From Roseococcus sp. SYP-B2431 (lineage in GTDB: Bacteria; Pseudomonadota; Alphaproteobacteria; Acetobacterales; Acetobacteraceae), in NCBI RefSeq assembly GCF_004336745.1, contig NZ_SJXD01000028.1, positions 124,001 through 188,000 on the forward strand: a stretch of DNA of 64,000 nucleotides, written 5' to 3'. The notes beneath the pieces are model-generated. The model did not search any database and was not told where the DNA came from. It saw only the letters and a program-made list of their open reading frames with translations. This document shows, piece by piece, positions 2,115 to 56,585 of this stretch (position 1 is the stretch's first letter; each line of letters begins with the position of its first letter). Both the position numbers and the translations under genes were made by a program.

Positions 2115-3851
2115 ATGGATCCCGTGACGCTTGCCGTGCTTTCCGCGCGCTTCACCGCCATCGTGGAGGAGATGGGCGAGGGGCTGCTCCGGACGGCCTA
2201 TAGCCAGATCCTGAACTCCAGCCGCGACTTCTCCATCGCCGTGACCGACGGCGCCTGCCGGCTGGTGGCGCAGGCGGACCACATCCCCGTGCATGTCGGC
2301 GCCATGCCCTTCGCGGCCAAGGCCGTGGTGGACGCCTTCGGCGAGGACATGAAGCCCGGCGACGTGTTTCTCCTGAACGATCCCTATCACGGCGGCAGCC
2401 ACCTGCCCGATCTGACGATCGTGCTCCCTGTCTTCGACGCTCCGCCGCTGGCGAATTCAGACCCTCGGGCTGCGCCCCCGGATCATCCGCGGCGGGTGCG
2501 CTTCTACAGCGTCGTGCGCGCGCACCAATCCGACATCGGCGGCAATACCCATGGCGGCTACAATCCCGGCGCCACCGAGATCTGGCAGGAAGGGCTGCGC
2601 ATCCCGCCCATCCGGCTCGGCGAGAATTTTTCCATGCGGCCCGATCTCGTCGCGATGCTCGCGCTCAACACGCGCATCAACCGCGACTTCCGGGGCGACC
2701 TCGCGGCCATGCTGGGCGCCGCCAAGCTCGGCGCGAATCGCCTTTCCGCGCTGCTCGGCCAGCATGGCGGCGGAAGCCTGATGGCCGCCGTGGACGCCAT
2801 CCTGGATCTCGCCCATGCGCATACGAAGCGCATCGTCGAATCCTGGCCCGACGGCAAATGGCATGGCGAAGCCTTCCTCGACGACGACGGGCACGACGCG
2901 AGGAACATCGCCATCCGCGCCAGCTGCACCAAGCAGGGCGGCACGCTGACGGTCGATCTGTCGGAGAGCGACGACCAGGTTCTGGGCATCGTGAACTCCT
3001 CCTATCCGAACATGTTCTCAGCCGTCTGCATGGCCTTCGCCTATCTGCTCGACCCCGAGGTGGCGAAGAACGAGGGCGCTTTCCGCGCGCTGCGCGTCAT
3101 CGCGCGCGAAGGCAGCATCGTCTGGGCGCGCGAGGGCGCGGCCGTCACGCTCTGCACCAGCCATTGCAGCAACGAGATCGTGGAAGCCATCATGCGCGCC
3201 ATGGAGAATTGCTGCCCCGAACGCGCCGTGGGCGGCTGGGGAAGGCGCTTCCGCATCGCCATCACGGGCAAGGATGCGCGCCGGCCGGACCGCAAGTTCG
3301 TGTGGCACCTCTTCCACGCGCGGCCGGGCGGCGGCGGGCACGCGAAGGGCGACGGCTGGTCCACGGCGGGCGAGTGGCACTCGGCCGGCGGGCTGAAATT
3401 CGGCAGCGTCGAGATGGCCGAGGCGCGCTTCCCGCTGCATTTCCGCAAGCACGAGTTCCTGGGCGGCACGGCGGGCGCCGGCCAGTATCGCGGCGGCCAC
3501 GGCGCCGAGCTCGAGCTGGTCGTGGAAAGCGACGGCCCCTCGCGCGGCAATACCGCCGGCGACGGCGCCTTCCACGGCAGCGCCGGCATCGCAGGCGGAC
3601 GGGATTCCGCGCCGCACCGCTATGCGCTCCGCAAGGCCGACGGCAGCGAGCGCGTGCTGCGCACCAAGGAGGTCGGCATCGGCATCGAATCCGGCGAGGT
3701 GATCCACGTCCGCTCCGCTGGCGGCGGCGGCTGGGGCGATCCGGCGAAGCGCGATCCCGCCCTCATCGCGCGCGATACCGAAGAAGGGCTTTCCGACCCG
3801 CCGATTCACGCTAAGGGCGAAGTGGCCCGAAGCGATCGGGGGGAGGCCTGA
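2115..3851 (+). CDS. hyuB: Hydantoinase B/oxoprolinase family protein
   Basis: A 578-residue HyuB subunit, partner of the ATP-dependent HyuA that follows by one base. Families with this pair include N-methylhydantoinase, 5-oxoprolinase and acetone carboxylase, all using ATP to activate an amide or carbonyl substrate. The start at the ATG giving MDPVTLAVLSARFTAIVEEM is chosen because this is the family's conserved N terminus; the frame stays open for another 680 bases upstream, but that part is antisense to the lactonase gene. Conserved blocks include MGEGLLRTAYS, NDPYHGGSHLPD, and the C-terminal GGGGWGDPAKRDP. Substrate cannot be assigned from sequence. Confidence 0.92.
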   Translation: MDPVTLAVLSARFTAIVEEMGEGLLRTAYSQILNSSRDFSIAVTDGACRLVAQADHIPVHVGAMPFAAKAVVDAFGEDMKPGDVFLLNDPYHGGSHLPDLTIVLPVFDAPPLANSDPRAAPPDHPRRVRFYSVVRAHQSDIGGNTHGGYNPGATEIWQEGLRIPPIRLGENFSMRPDLVAMLALNTRINRDFRGDLAAMLGAAKLGANRLSALLGQHGGGSLMAAVDAILDLAHAHTKRIVESWPDGKWHGEAFLDDDGHDARNIAIRASCTKQGGTLTVDLSESDDQVLGIVNSSYPNMFSAVCMAFAYLLDPEVAKNEGAFRALRVIAREGSIVWAREGAAVTLCTSHCSNEIVEAIMRAMENCCPERAVGGWGRRFRIAITGKDARRPDRKFVWHLFHARPGGGGHAKGDGWSTAGEWHSAGGLKFGSVEMAEARFPLHFRKHEFLGGTAGAGQYRGGHGAELELVVESDGPSRGNTAGDGAFHGSAGIAGGRDSAPHRYALRKADGSERVLRTKEVGIGIESGEVIHVRSAGGGGWGDPAKRDPALIARDTEEGLSDPPIHAKGEVARSDRGEA

Positions 3852-47505: not shown

Positions 47506-47520
47506 GCGGCGTTCCCCCAG

Positions 47521-47559
47521 TCAGGCGTTCGGTGGTCAGGCGTTCAGTGGTCAGGCGTT
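47521..47559. repeat. Tandem 15-bp repeats in phaR divergent spacer
   Basis: TCAGGCGTTCGGTGG (47521-47535) and TCAGGCGTTCAGTGG (47536-47550) are followed by a third partial copy TCAGGCGTT at 47551-47559. They begin 15 bp from the phaR start, and about 100 bp from the opposite gene. The regular 15-bp spacing suggests a cooperative protein-binding site or a slipped-strand duplication. Confidence 0.6.
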
Positions 47560-47657: not shown

Positions 47658-48149
47658 ATGGACCGACCCGAGGATCTCGATCGACTGGCCGCCGACTGGA
47701 TCGCCCTGTGGGAGAGCGAGCTGGCGGCGCTCGGCCGGGACGCGGAGCTGGCCGAGGCCTGGGCCTCGTCCGTCGCGCTGATGTCGGCCTTCTGGCGGGC
47801 CCAGGCGTCGTACATGTCGGCCCGGATGGCGGCGGCGAAGTGGCCGCATGAGCCTTCCCCCTTCACCTTCGGCCCGGAGCCGCCGCGGCCCGCGGCCCCT
47901 TCCGCTGCACCTGATGCTGGGCGCGGCGCGGGGCCTGGCCGCGCTGACGAGCTCGCCCCTGGAGCCATCGCCGGGGGAGCCATCCCCGGGGGCGCCATCC
48001 CCGGGGGGGCCGCTCCCGGGGATGCCGCCCTTCGCGCCCGGCTGGCCGAGTTGGAACGGCGGCTGGCCGCGCTCGAAGGCGGGCCAGGCGGAGGCGGCGC
48101 GGATCGCCCGCGCCCTCGCCAGCCTCGAGCCCGGCGCCCCAAGCCCTGA
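47658..48149 (+). CDS. PhaE-like small protein overlapping the PhaC-like gene
   Basis: A 163-residue protein with a helical N-terminal part (LAADWIALWESELAALGRDA, residues 10-29), a Gly/Ala/Pro linker and a C-terminal coiled coil LRARLAELERRLAALEGG followed by an Arg/Pro tail. The layout recalls PHA synthase partner proteins, but the family is not certain. In the non-overlapped part (47658-47846) by eye only about 4 of 63 codons end in A or T, typical of real genes here. The last 302 bases are shared with the next gene in another frame. Confidence 0.65.
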   Translation: MDRPEDLDRLAADWIALWESELAALGRDAELAEAWASSVALMSAFWRAQASYMSARMAAAKWPHEPSPFTFGPEPPRPAAPSAAPDAGRGAGPGRADELAPGAIAGGAIPGGAIPGGAAPGDAALRARLAELERRLAALEGGPGGGGADRPRPRQPRARRPKP

Positions 48150-53483: not shown

Positions 53484-53662
53484 GTGGGTCTCCTCGGAGA
53501 TCGCTGCCCGGGCGCGTCGCCTTGCCCGGGTCGTGGGGGAGCCGGTCGCAGACCGGAAAGGGGCGCGCCGTGGCCGGCACGTCCTCCGCCCCTAGGGAGC
53601 GGATGCGCGATGAACGCCTGGGGCCAGGGCAGGTTGCCCGCCTGCCACCCCCCGCCGCGAGC

Positions 53663-54454
53663 CTACCCCAGCAGCAGCACCGCCAGCATCACCACGCCGA
53701 GGGCGATGCGGTACCAGCCGAAGGGCGTGAAGCCGATCCGCCCGATCACGGCCAGAACCGCCTTCACCGTCGCCAGCGCCACCACGAAGGCCGTCACGAA
53801 GCCCACGGCGATCAGCGACATCCCGTCCATGGACAGCTCGTGCCGCGCCTTCAGCAGCGAATAGGCCGTGGCCGCGAGCATGGTCGGGATGGCGAGGACG
53901 AAGCTGAACTCGGCCGCCGTCCTGCGGTCCACGCCGCAGAGCAGCGCCGTGATGATGGTGGCGCCGGAGCGCGAGGTGCCCGGGATCATCGCCAGCGCCT
54001 GGCCGAAGCCGATCAGCACGGCGGCCAGCGGGCCGATCTCGGGGACGGAATGGATGCTCGGTTCCGGCATCTTCCGCTCGATCGCGATGATGGCGATGCC
54101 GCCCAGGATCAGCGCCACGCAGACCACATAGGGGTTGAAGAGCAGCGCGGTGATCGTGCCGTGCAGCGTCGCGCCGATGACCATCGCGGGCAGGAAGGCG
54201 AGGAGGATGTTGATGGCGAAGTAGCGCTGCGGCGTGCGTGGGCGCCACATGTGCCGCAGCACGTCCAGCAGCTTCGGCCAGAAGACCACGACCACCGCGA
54301 GGATGGCGCCGAGCTGGATGGAGATCTCGAAGACCTTGCCCGGCGGGCCCTGGAAGCCGAGCAGCTCGCCCAGCAGGATCAGATGGCCGGTGGAGGAGAT
54401 GGGCAGGAACTCGGTGAGGCCCTCGATGAGGCCCATCAGGAATGCGTCGAACAT
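53663..54454 (-). CDS. uppP: Undecaprenyl-diphosphate phosphatase
   Basis: A 263-residue membrane enzyme recycling the lipid carrier of cell-wall synthesis by dephosphorylating undecaprenyl diphosphate; overexpression confers bacitracin resistance in known systems. The two catalytic regions are GLTEFLPISSTGHLIL near the N terminus and IPGTSRSGATI. Three bases after the proB stop, with its ribosome site AAAGG inside the last proB codons, so it is translationally coupled to the repeat-bearing end of proB. Confidence 0.95.
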   Translation of the reverse strand: MFDAFLMGLIEGLTEFLPISSTGHLILLGELLGFQGPPGKVFEISIQLGAILAVVVVFWPKLLDVLRHMWRPRTPQRYFAINILLAFLPAMVIGATLHGTITALLFNPYVVCVALILGGIAIIAIERKMPEPSIHSVPEIGPLAAVLIGFGQALAMIPGTSRSGATIITALLCGVDRRTAAEFSFVLAIPTMLAATAYSLLKARHELSMDGMSLIAVGFVTAFVVALATVKAVLAVIGRIGFTPFGWYRIALGVVMLAVLLLG

Positions 54455-54457
54455 TCT

Positions 54458-55873
54458 CTACCTTTGTTGCTTGTGCGCGGCCGATTCACGGCCGGCTTCG
54501 CCCGGCCGATCGGAGACGGGCTGCGCCGCCGATTCACGGCCGGCTTCGCCGGACCGATCGGACGCGGGCTGCGCGGCCGATTCACGGCCGGCTTCGCCGG
54601 ACCGATCGGACGCGGGCTGCGCGACCGATTCACGGCCGGCTTCGCCCGGCCGATCGGAGGCGGGCTGCGCGACCGATTCACGGCCGGCTTCGCCCGGCTG
54701 ATCGGAGGCGGGCTGCGCCGCCGATCCACGGCCGGCTTCGCCCGGCCGATCGGAGGCGAGGACCAGATCGTCGCGGTGGACGAGCTCGTCGCGGCCACGC
54801 CAGCCCAGCAGCGCATCGATCTCGGCGCTGCGATGGCCGGCGATGCGGGCAGCATCCGCGGCGTCATAGGCGGAGAGGCCGCGGGCCAGCTCGCGCCCCG
54901 CCTCGTCCCGCACGCTCACCGCATCGCCGCGCGAGAAATCGCCCGTCACCGCGCGCACCCCGGCCGGCAGCAGCGAGCCGCCGCGCAGCAGCGCCCTGCC
55001 CGCGCCGGCATCGACCACCAGCGCGCCGTGCGGCTGCAAGGAGCCGCCGATCCAGCGCTTGCGCGCCGTGCGGCCCTCGGGCAAGGCCAGGAACCAGGTG
55101 CAGCGCTCGCCGGATTCCAGCCGCGCCAGCGGGTGCGGCGCATGGCCCAGCGCGATCGCCATGGCGCAGCCCGCGCCCGTGGCGATGCGCGCCGCGATCA
55201 GCTTGGTGCGCATGCCGCCGGAGGAGTAGCCGGGAGGCGGATCGCCGCCCATGGCCATGATCTCGTCGGTCAGGCGCTCCACGACCGGCAGATGCGCGGC
55301 GGCCGGATCCTTGCGCGGATCGGCGGTGTAGAGCCCGTCGATGTCCGAGAGCAGGATCAGCGCGTCGGCCGAGATCATCTCGGCCACGCGGGCGGCGAGG
55401 CGGTCGTTGTCGCCGAAGCGGATCTCGGCCGTGGCCACCGTGTCGTTCTCGTTGATGACCGGCACGCAGCCCAGCTCGGCCAGCGTCGCCAGCGTGGCGC
55501 GGGCATTGAGATAGCGGCGGCGGTCCTCGCTGTCCTCCAGCGTGAGCAGCAGCTGCGCGGCCCGCAGGCCATGCGCCGAGAGCGCATGGTCCCAGGCGCC
55601 GGCCAGCCGGATCTGGCCAACCGCGGCGGCGGCCTGCTTCTCCTCCAGCCGCAACACCTTGCGCGTCAGGCCGAGCGTGCCGCGCGCCAGCGCCACCGCG
55701 CCCGAGGAGACGACCACCACCTCGACGCCGCGCGTCCGCAGGGCGGCGATGTCGGCCGCCACGGAATCGAGCCAGCCGACGCGCGGCTCCGCCTTCTCCA
55801 CCAGGAGGGCAGAGCCGATCTTGACGACGATGCGTCTGGCCTGGGCGAGAGAAAAGGGGGCGAGCGGGGACAT
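54458..55873 (-). CDS. proB: Glutamate 5-kinase with C-terminal repeat tail
   Basis: A 471-residue proline-pathway enzyme that phosphorylates glutamate. The kinase domain ([44 protein letters not shown]) is followed by a PUA domain (about 280-370). Normal family length is about 370; here about 96 residues of tail follow, made of six 16-residue repeats (consensus [16 protein letters not shown]). The tail is hydrophilic, low complexity and probably disordered. It ends 3 bp before uppP. Feedback and oligomerisation domains are intact, so activity is likely retained. Confidence 0.93.
54483..54759 (-). repeat. Six tandem 48-bp repeats in the 3' end of proB
   Basis: Units start at 54483, 54531, 54579, 54627, 54675 and 54723, each 48 bp except the last, partial one. 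Every unit holds an inverted repeat CGGCCGG/CCGGCCG with a 5-6 base loop; units 2 and 3 have one bulged A in the stem. On the proB strand the array encodes the C-terminal tail; on the other strand it would be six stable hairpins. 48 is divisible by 3, so copy number changes keep frame. Confidence 0.95.
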
Positions 55874-55955
55874 GGCGGCGCGTCTGTGGGGGTTTTGACC
55901 GGCGGGGGCAAGACACCCCCTCGTTACATGCCATTCGCCTTTCTAGTCTGCGGCG

Positions 55956-56585
55956 ATGCGACTGCTGCTCCTTCTCCTGCTGGTTCCGCTGTCGGCCTGC
56001 GGCCGAAGCTCGCCCCTGGCCGAGCTGACGCGCCTCTTCCAGGGCGGCGAGAGCGAGCCCGACCGCCTCGCCATCGCCGAGGCCGAGAGCGAGGAGGATG
56101 GCGAAGGCCCGCAGGTCCGGTTCGCGCTGGGCCGCCGCGCCGCCAATGCCGTGCTCATCCAGCAGCAGGGCGAGCGCCGCATGTGGCGCGCGCCGGGCGG
56201 CGTGGTGGTCGCGACCGACGGGCCGCGCGTGGTGGCGACGGCGGGGCTGCCGCAGATCGTCATGGCCACGCGCTTCGACGGGCCCGATCCGCTGGACGAT
56301 CCGCGCGCCCTGCTGGAGCGCGGCGCCGAGGTACGGCGGCTCGTCGATGTCTCCGGCGCCTCGCGCAGCCCGGAGACGATGCGCTTCGGCGTCGCCTTCG
56401 ATTGCCGCCTGCGCGCGGCGCGCACCGAGGAGGGCATGATCCTGGTGGAGGAGCGCTGCCGCGTGCGCGGATTCCCGCCCGTGACGAACCGCTTCTGGGC
56501 CAGCGCCGAGACCGGCCAGGTGGGCTTCGCCGAGCAATGGGTGGGGCCGGGGATGGGGCCGCTCAGCCTGGATTTCGAGCCTTAG
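55956..56585 (+). CDS. YjbF/GfcB-like lipoprotein
   Basis: A 209-residue lipoprotein: lipobox LSAC with Cys15 after MRLLLLLLLVPLSA. The body (RFALGRRAANAVLIQQQGER, APGGVVVATDGPRVVATAGL) matches the YjbF/GfcB type, which in enterobacteria belongs to group 4 capsule-like loci. Here no other gfc/yjb genes are near, apart from a second lipoprotein 84 bp downstream. Function unknown. Confidence 0.72.
   Translation: MRLLLLLLLVPLSACGRSSPLAELTRLFQGGESEPDRLAIAEAESEEDGEGPQVRFALGRRAANAVLIQQQGERRMWRAPGGVVVATDGPRVVATAGLPQIVMATRFDGPDPLDDPRALLERGAEVRRLVDVSGASRSPETMRFGVAFDCRLRAARTEEGMILVEERCRVRGFPPVTNRFWASAETGQVGFAEQWVGPGMGPLSLDFEP

Follow-up and report, generated by a model that had tools for sequence, protein, structure and literature searches.

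The gene for glutamate 5-kinase, proB, of Roseococcus sp. SYP-B2431 (54458..55873, minus strand) ends in six tandem 48-bp units immediately ahead of uppP, which raises the question of whether these units serve the protein, act in the mRNA or are copies of an element that has spread in the genome. The locus was analysed within a window of 64,000 nucleotides (contig NZ_SJXD01000028.1, positions 124,001 to 188,000), whose numbering is used below.

The proB array and its hairpin

ProB has 471 residues and is complete by NCBIfam and Pfam, with kinase and PUA core in residues 1-372 and a model match over residues 13-371. Residues 373-468 form a tail of six 16-residue units encoded by a REP-like element, followed by QQR and a TAG stop. 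The tandem array, in which each unit consists of the hairpin element and a spacer in head-to-tail order, lies at 54474..54758 on the minus strand. Tandem Repeats Finder, run on the window, gave a period of 48, 5.9 copies, 93% matches, 0% indels and a score of 479, compared with 81 for the next-best array of the window, and a direct-repeat search gave a start-to-start spacing of 48 throughout. Together with the translation, these results agree with the earlier note, which had described six contiguous in-frame 48-bp units of 16 residues each at the end of proB. It had also placed the start of uppP 3 bp past the proB stop, and this holds: the gene, encoding undecaprenyl-diphosphate phosphatase, occupies 53663..54454 on the minus strand with its ATG at 54454. 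UppP is normal by NCBIfam and Pfam, and an AAAGG of its own stands upstream of its start.

The copies were scored with R1, a covariance model based on 60 copies of the element. In the order in which proB is read, and all on the minus strand, they lie at 54715..54759 (48.8 bits; bulge TGG, not TGA), 54667..54711 (38.8 bits; a GATCAG variant), 54619..54663 (48.2 bits), 54571..54615 (51.6 bits; a GGTCCGG variant whose fold retains the pairing), 54523..54567 (42.6 bits; again GGTCCGG) and 54475..54519 (47 bits), the last adjoining the proB stop. The units differ among themselves in sequence, and the count of six is that of one draft assembly of 31 contigs. Folded as RNA, the array has a z of -4.29, with none of 200 shuffles folding as well. 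No match up to E 1 was obtained when positions 53500-56000 were searched against 4227 Rfam families.

Two side observations concern short motifs and repeats. The nearly fixed GTGAATC of the element contains GAATC, a GANTC site, the CcrM methylation motif, and for this reason five of the six proB units (54483-54703) have such a site. Elsewhere in the window, 15-bp minisatellites lie at 47520-47559 (GTCAGGCGTTCAGTG) and 47961-48028 (GGAGCCATCCCCGGG).

The element is about 45-55 bp long and can be written 5'-gCGTC-CGATCG-(variable stem-loop)-CG-TGA-ATCGG-CCGC-3', with a 3-nt bulge; the strand reading CGTC-CGATCG...CG-TGA-ATCGG, which is the sense strand in proB, is called the A strand. The 7-bp arms that the earlier note had seen in each unit, CGGCCGG/CCGGCCG, are present, but the remainder of the hairpin had been overlooked. 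Outside these arms it continues with the TGA bulge and the stem CCGAT/ATCGG, and then with a mismatch followed by 3-4 further pairs. Pairing was measured on 150 distinct copies matching a strict pattern, CCGATYCACG-N(8-38)-ATCGG, reduced to 95 arrays, one per locus. The outer position beside CCGAT/ATCGG is paired in 0 of the 95, and outer positions 2-5 are paired in 88, 87, 83 and 59, against maxima of 66, 83, 71 and 56 in 500 shuffles. For eight of inner positions 1-9, the number of paired arrays exceeds that in every one of 1000 shuffles; the exception is position 4 (45 paired, shuffle maximum 49). Folded alone, the inner regions (11-36 nt) have a median z of -1.71 against dinucleotide shuffles, and 45 of 95 fall below -2.

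In an alignment of 60 copies, 88% of cells are paired, and in 128 cells both partners have changed while still pairing, compared with 46 in shuffles (0 of 500 reached the observed value); like the other shuffles used here, these take no account of relatedness between copies. Two coarser measures, on the same 60 copies, gave 12 pairs with a double change vs 10.0 (reached by 23 of 500 shuffles) and 35 pair types vs 30.5 (19 of 500). RNAalifold recovered the outer stem and the core but no more than two inner pairs. Because the core is built into the strict pattern, and equally into a short core pattern used below, its invariance was judged only on R1 hits outside the strict pattern, which make up 27 of the 48 best. 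There, CCGAT/ATCGG is often CTGAT/ATCAG or GCGAT/ATCGC (CG to TA, CG to GC), the second pair inside the bulge switches from G-C to C-G, and GATC, GTGA and ATC are nearly fixed. As the core stem covaries around nearly fixed bases in these 27 hits, what defines the family, to judge from its sequences, is a bulged hairpin in which about eleven bases are nearly fixed (GATC...GTGAATC), and not its full sequence.

Wobble pairs in the inner stem are divided unevenly, with 55 on the A strand and 15 on the other. The ratio is 11:4 in arrays with the A strand as sense strand, 15:4 in those with it as antisense strand and 25:4 between convergent genes; without the position beside the core, the counts become 5:4, 12:4 and 13:4. 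Because this excess is independent of transcription, a DNA hairpin is favoured over an mRNA hairpin. As wobbles are in excess on the CGTC strand whatever the gene context, recognition of the hairpin as single-stranded DNA on that strand is suggested, with moderate strength since the asymmetry comes partly from one position. Folding energy alone cannot separate the strands: single units folded as DNA gave z between -1.55 and -3.56 for the proB-sense strands of all six, and -1.01 and -4.00 for two opposite strands.

Distribution across genomes and gene contexts

A whole-genome search with the proB array led to seven further places, six of which show the same ends around other middles. The strict pattern matches 28 times in this genome and is found in 20 of the 21 genomes of its GTDB genus, itself included, with 94 matches in G019 and 53 in G020 (G numbers denote genomes; G000 is that of SYP-B2431). 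G001, another genome of the genus, is that of Rubritepida flocculans DSM 14296, to judge from 4101 bp at 100% identity to a named record. Of 397 genomes in the wider family, 155 lack a strict match and 242 have one or more; a count of one or two, which many of these show, is about background. Among the matches listed, genomes with at least ten are found in ten other genera. The reversed pattern, used as a control, gave 0 in all 21 genus genomes and 0 or 1 per genome among the family genomes listed. It can contain CTAG, which is rare in bacteria, so this control flatters the result, and genomes lacking the family make a better background. The short core pattern matches 69 times in this genome and 281 times in G019 vs 20 in G021 and 29 in G407 as background; a search by a short pattern with up to 3 mismatches allowed gave 97 matches vs 26 in controls and was discarded as too loose.

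R1 finds 53 copies in this genome and at least 137, 144 and 141 in G003, G019 and G020, these top counts being lower bounds under strict filters. G002 and G006 have 2 copies each, and the incomplete genome G007 has none. In four genomes of other genera in the family, R1 found none in two and 1 and 2 copies in the others; in 16 genomes representing other families of the class, it found a single copy in one and none in 15. On 868 kb of locus sequence, R1 recovered every one of the six copies in proB and, at 3795-3845, one more in the window, which the earlier note had missed along with those elsewhere in the genome. No strict copy lies over 1.58 Mb of the G003 chromosome (G003:C1 790110-2374602; 28 loci, P 8e-5), and a copy-free desert at 0.79-2.37 Mb was entertained and then dropped, as core-pattern matches fill the region. 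With variant-core copies present there, the gap is a matter of subfamily, and subfamilies may be regionally distributed along this chromosome.

Gene context was assigned with a purpose-made gene caller, which gave 89% coding and called proB and uppP correctly. The 95 arrays comprise 55 between co-directional genes, 31 between convergent genes, 8 within coding sequence (proB twice, in two species; some of the eight may be wrong starts) and 1 at an edge. None of the 94 classified arrays lies between divergent genes, and 86 of the 94 are intergenic. The A strand is sense in 23 of the 55 co-directional arrays and antisense in 32. Where a start codon stands 3-13 nt past the element on the other strand, the element ends in AGG or GGG in 20 of 30 arrays, vs 4 of 65 others (Fisher 1e-9). 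RTGA is present on both sides of 15 of 25 GG-ended arrays vs 1 of 78 CG-ended arrays, and of the 20 GG-ended arrays with a downstream RTGA, 14 have it starting 7 nt past ATCGG. Loci L183, L194, L249, L255, L259 and others exemplify this operon-junction subtype, with RTGA on both sides and an AGG/GGG end. We infer insertion at start/stop overlaps with a Shine-Dalgarno-like end, and the order of these events likewise. The proB copies are oriented opposite to this subtype.

Copy number at proB and at other sites

Near full-length proB is present in 17 of the 21 genomes; 18 proB loci were examined, with 17 readable junctions. Comparison of the proB-uppP junction across the genus, a check proposed in the earlier note, revealed six, three, one, remnant, displaced or no copies in these 17 genomes. 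In-frame arrays of the same inner stem type stand at the same codon in the present genome (six units) and in G017 (three units; ProB 95% identical), so that two of the 17 ProBs carry the in-frame 16-residue repeat. The expectation that copy number could vary without a break of frame is borne out between species by these six vs three units of 48 bp. G012 has a single copy with a quite different inner stem, whose bulge TGA serves as the proB stop. G016 and G004 have what read as shrunken remnants at proB, and G010 has two copies past the proB stop with another outer stem (R1 E 4e-5 and 1.5e-4). Eleven of the 17 junctions have no copy within about 120 nt, and in five of these eleven proB and uppP overlap as TGATG.

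The element also enters two hydantoinase genes. The single copy at 3795..3845 of the window (minus strand; R1 53.2 bits, E 4e-11) lies at the 3' end of the gene for hydantoinase B (PF02538, plus strand, stop 3849-3851), 7 nt before the ATG of the next ORF (3853); it makes the last codons of the protein and runs into GGGGGGAGG just before that ATG. A hydantoinase B end built of the element, in a similar arrangement, is also found in G005 (L150). In hydantoinase A, within the Pfam domain, the element is in frame at the same codons in the present genome, G017 and G019 (loci L003, about 1511-1603, at G000:C26:176146-176234; L280; L274), with two units, two with the second cut short, and one, respectively, and the copies differ in inner stems among the three species. 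The same element DNA is translated to different residues in hydantoinase A and B. These in-frame copies, the proB copy series and the strict matches in 20 of 21 genus genomes support the earlier guess that a palindromic element has proliferated and that its copies at the C terminus are tolerated.

Sites were further compared between G019 and G003, which have about 93% identity around proB. When 55 locus ids of G019 were tried on 800 kb of G003, 18 sites mapped, 16 of them clearly; nine of the 16 are also occupied in G003, with copy number differing at four, and seven are empty, remnant or unrelated there. From G020, 2 of 15 locus ids mapped to G003 sequence, one site being empty and the other occupied in opposite orientation. 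Species differ in which sites hold the element and in how many copies stand at a given site. Opposite orientations at one site were seen for L239 (G019:C1:910810) and L202 (G020) vs L335 (G003), for which in-place inversion and independent insertion are candidate readings.

All 46 multi-copy strict clusters among the extracted genus loci are head-to-tail, where a cluster cut by a locus end may be counted twice. Spacers between copies measure 13-22 bp, with 15 or 16 in 38 of 62. Of 42 arrays, 26 have a period that is a multiple of three (P 2e-4), and this may reflect shared subfamily lengths. Flanking direct repeats of at least 8 nt occur in 8 of 122 arrays vs about 1.3 expected; this is a weak signal only, and a clear target-site duplication was not accepted.

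Origin of the array and its alternatives

There is a good probability that the proB array goes back to a dispersed REP-like palindrome that inserted at the proB/uppP junction and was then amplified head to tail. The hairpin would be recognised as single-stranded DNA on one strand and moved by an enzyme other than RAYT. After the element had landed, copies with their 13-22 bp spacer would multiply through slippage in replication or through unequal recombination. Within proB, a period of 48 bp, together with the phase in which it is read, would keep clear of the element's own TGA, by which the array would have become a harmless C-terminal tail. The tail is probably disordered and is most likely tolerated baggage.

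RAYT was rejected as the mobiliser, as the Y1 transposase domain (PF01797), to whose family RAYTs belong, occurs in just one of 21 genomes, G006 (contigs C10, C14 and C19; L233-L235), which has only 2 R1 copies, and is absent in the other 20; the search was positive in 5 of 14 named genomes, E. coli included. The moving enzyme would thus be something other than RAYT. Spread by recombination, or descent and loss with no dedicated mobiliser, is a possible alternative. A more specific model of a moving element is offered tentatively. A non-RAYT enzyme would recognise the bulged single-stranded DNA hairpin with its about eleven near-fixed bases, and the stems would turn over freely; one branch would specialise in start/stop overlaps, bringing its own ribosome-binding site, so that the element could enter operons, even coding genes, without harming them.

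The element fits a broad definition of REPs, as dispersed short imperfect palindromes that are mostly extragenic at gene 3' ends. Di Nocera et al. described CGTC-tagged REPs that, in the passages drawn on here, are mainly alphaproteobacterial, lack a dedicated transposase and are missing in Acetobacteraceae, and whose tag is unpaired, with stems of 8-9 bp starting in A-T pairs, loops of 4-5 nt and dimers arranged head-to-head (Di Nocera et al. 2013, PMC3733652). Compared with these passages, the present element is likewise a short palindrome of Alphaproteobacteria with CGTC or CCTC at one end (83 CGTC, 22 CCTC, 2 TGTC and 43 other among 150 distinct copies), lies at gene 3' ends in unidirectional and convergent contexts with some intragenic copies, and has no dedicated transposase. 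It differs from that description in its tag, where C, G and the preceding base are paired in 87, 88 and 83 of 95 arrays and T alone is unpaired; in its CCGAT/ATCGG stem, 3-nt bulge and inner region of 11-36 nt; in its head-to-tail arrays (46 of 46) in place of head-to-head dimers; and in joining an invariant mismatch and near-invariant bulge to variable inner and outer stems. It is also found in Roseomonas-type Acetobacterales, whereas the tagged REPs are reported there as missing from Acetobacteraceae. Palindromes in the wider group are not without precedent, as a generic RepRanger search gave 1,369 REPs in Lichenicola cladoniae, of the Acetobacteraceae (PMC12306157); the passages of that paper drawn on give no motif for them and contain neither 'Roseomonas' nor 'Acetobacter'.

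Other systems share single features. Rickettsia palindromic elements lie in frame in coding genes of an alphaproteobacterium, according to the relevant passage of PMC3733652. The present element resembles them, by description and not by sequence, in its in-frame copies in proB, hydantoinase A and hydantoinase B, but is mainly intergenic (86 of 94), forms tandem arrays and has locus-specific stems. Like the GTAG REPs/REPINs with RAYT, it consists of dispersed imperfect hairpins mostly 3' of genes; unlike them, it has consensus feet GCGT and GCGG, and a Y1 transposase accompanies it in 1 of 21 genomes. Integron attC sites are folded single-strand hairpins with extrahelical bases and a variable terminal stem, two features that the present element shares, but its consensus lacks the AAC/GTT boxes. 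MIRUs of Mycobacterium tuberculosis are not known to be defined by a conserved bulged hairpin. The passages used from PMC2734929 describe them as tandem units of 40-100 bp in variable number, a trait that they share with the present element in an unrelated organism, and report just a few bp between stop and start at a MIRU operon gap in relatives without repeats. No description of the present family was found in the open-licence literature searched, and among the papers listed that contain the core letters, none deals with repeats in this group, to judge by titles and abstract starts. The REP-like elements here are unusual in the way that structure is conserved more than sequence.

That the hairpins are kept for a function in mRNA, such as 3' end protection, attenuation or uppP tuning, with dispersal secondary, is an unlikely alternative. 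The 94 classified arrays do lie at gene 3' ends, in operons or in genes and never between divergent genes, the proB array folds strongly, and the GG-ended subtype has its Shine-Dalgarno-like end ahead of start codons; but both orientations occur in co-directional contexts (23 vs 32 of 55), the wobble-tolerant strand is unchanged where the other strand is transcribed (15:4), and 11 of 17 proB-uppP junctions have no copy. The copy-free junctions and the mixed orientation to transcription leave the RNA device tuning uppP, the other guess of the earlier note, unsupported and probably wrong, and as a main reading it was rejected on the junction series, the orientations and the wobble pattern. Far less probable still is that the RTGA pattern and the AGG/GGG ends reflect an exapted translation signal, in which insertion in RTGA start/stop overlaps was followed by selection for a ribosome-binding site as the main cause of retention, as proposed for MIRUs in operons. 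The associations given above (20 of 30 vs 4 of 65; 15 of 25 vs 1 of 78) are as such a signal would give, but it covers the GG-ended subtype only, 31 of the 94 arrays stand between convergent genes, and the proB copies have the opposite orientation.

Equally improbable is a functional ProB domain, with selection at the protein level on the 16-residue repeat. Frame and period are kept in both this genome and G017, and eight of the nine proB units of the two species have 13 synonymous and 15 non-synonymous substitutions where 41 and 103 are possible, a non-synonymous share below chance that hints at some constraint on tail or hairpin; hairpin constraint alone could produce it. Against such a domain, only 2 of 17 ProBs of the genus have the repeat, the single copy of G012 terminates proB at its own TGA, and the same DNA gives different residues in hydantoinase A and B. 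An assembly artefact, which a single draft of 31 contigs might suggest, is next to impossible given that the units differ from each other and that a separate genome (G017) has a 3-unit array at the same codon.

Amplification of a landed REP-like element, the reading preferred here, bears on the spread of REPs without RAYT, a matter that the passages drawn on from PMC3733652 leave open and for which the present family is a tractable case. With 0 to at least 144 copies in one genus, a near-fixed core, occupied and empty sites and a series of copy numbers, the mobiliser can be looked for by gene-content comparison and hairpin pull-down. The family also illustrates one route by which a housekeeping enzyme gains a repetitive tail, and how the end of a repeat turns into a Shine-Dalgarno-like site at operon junctions.
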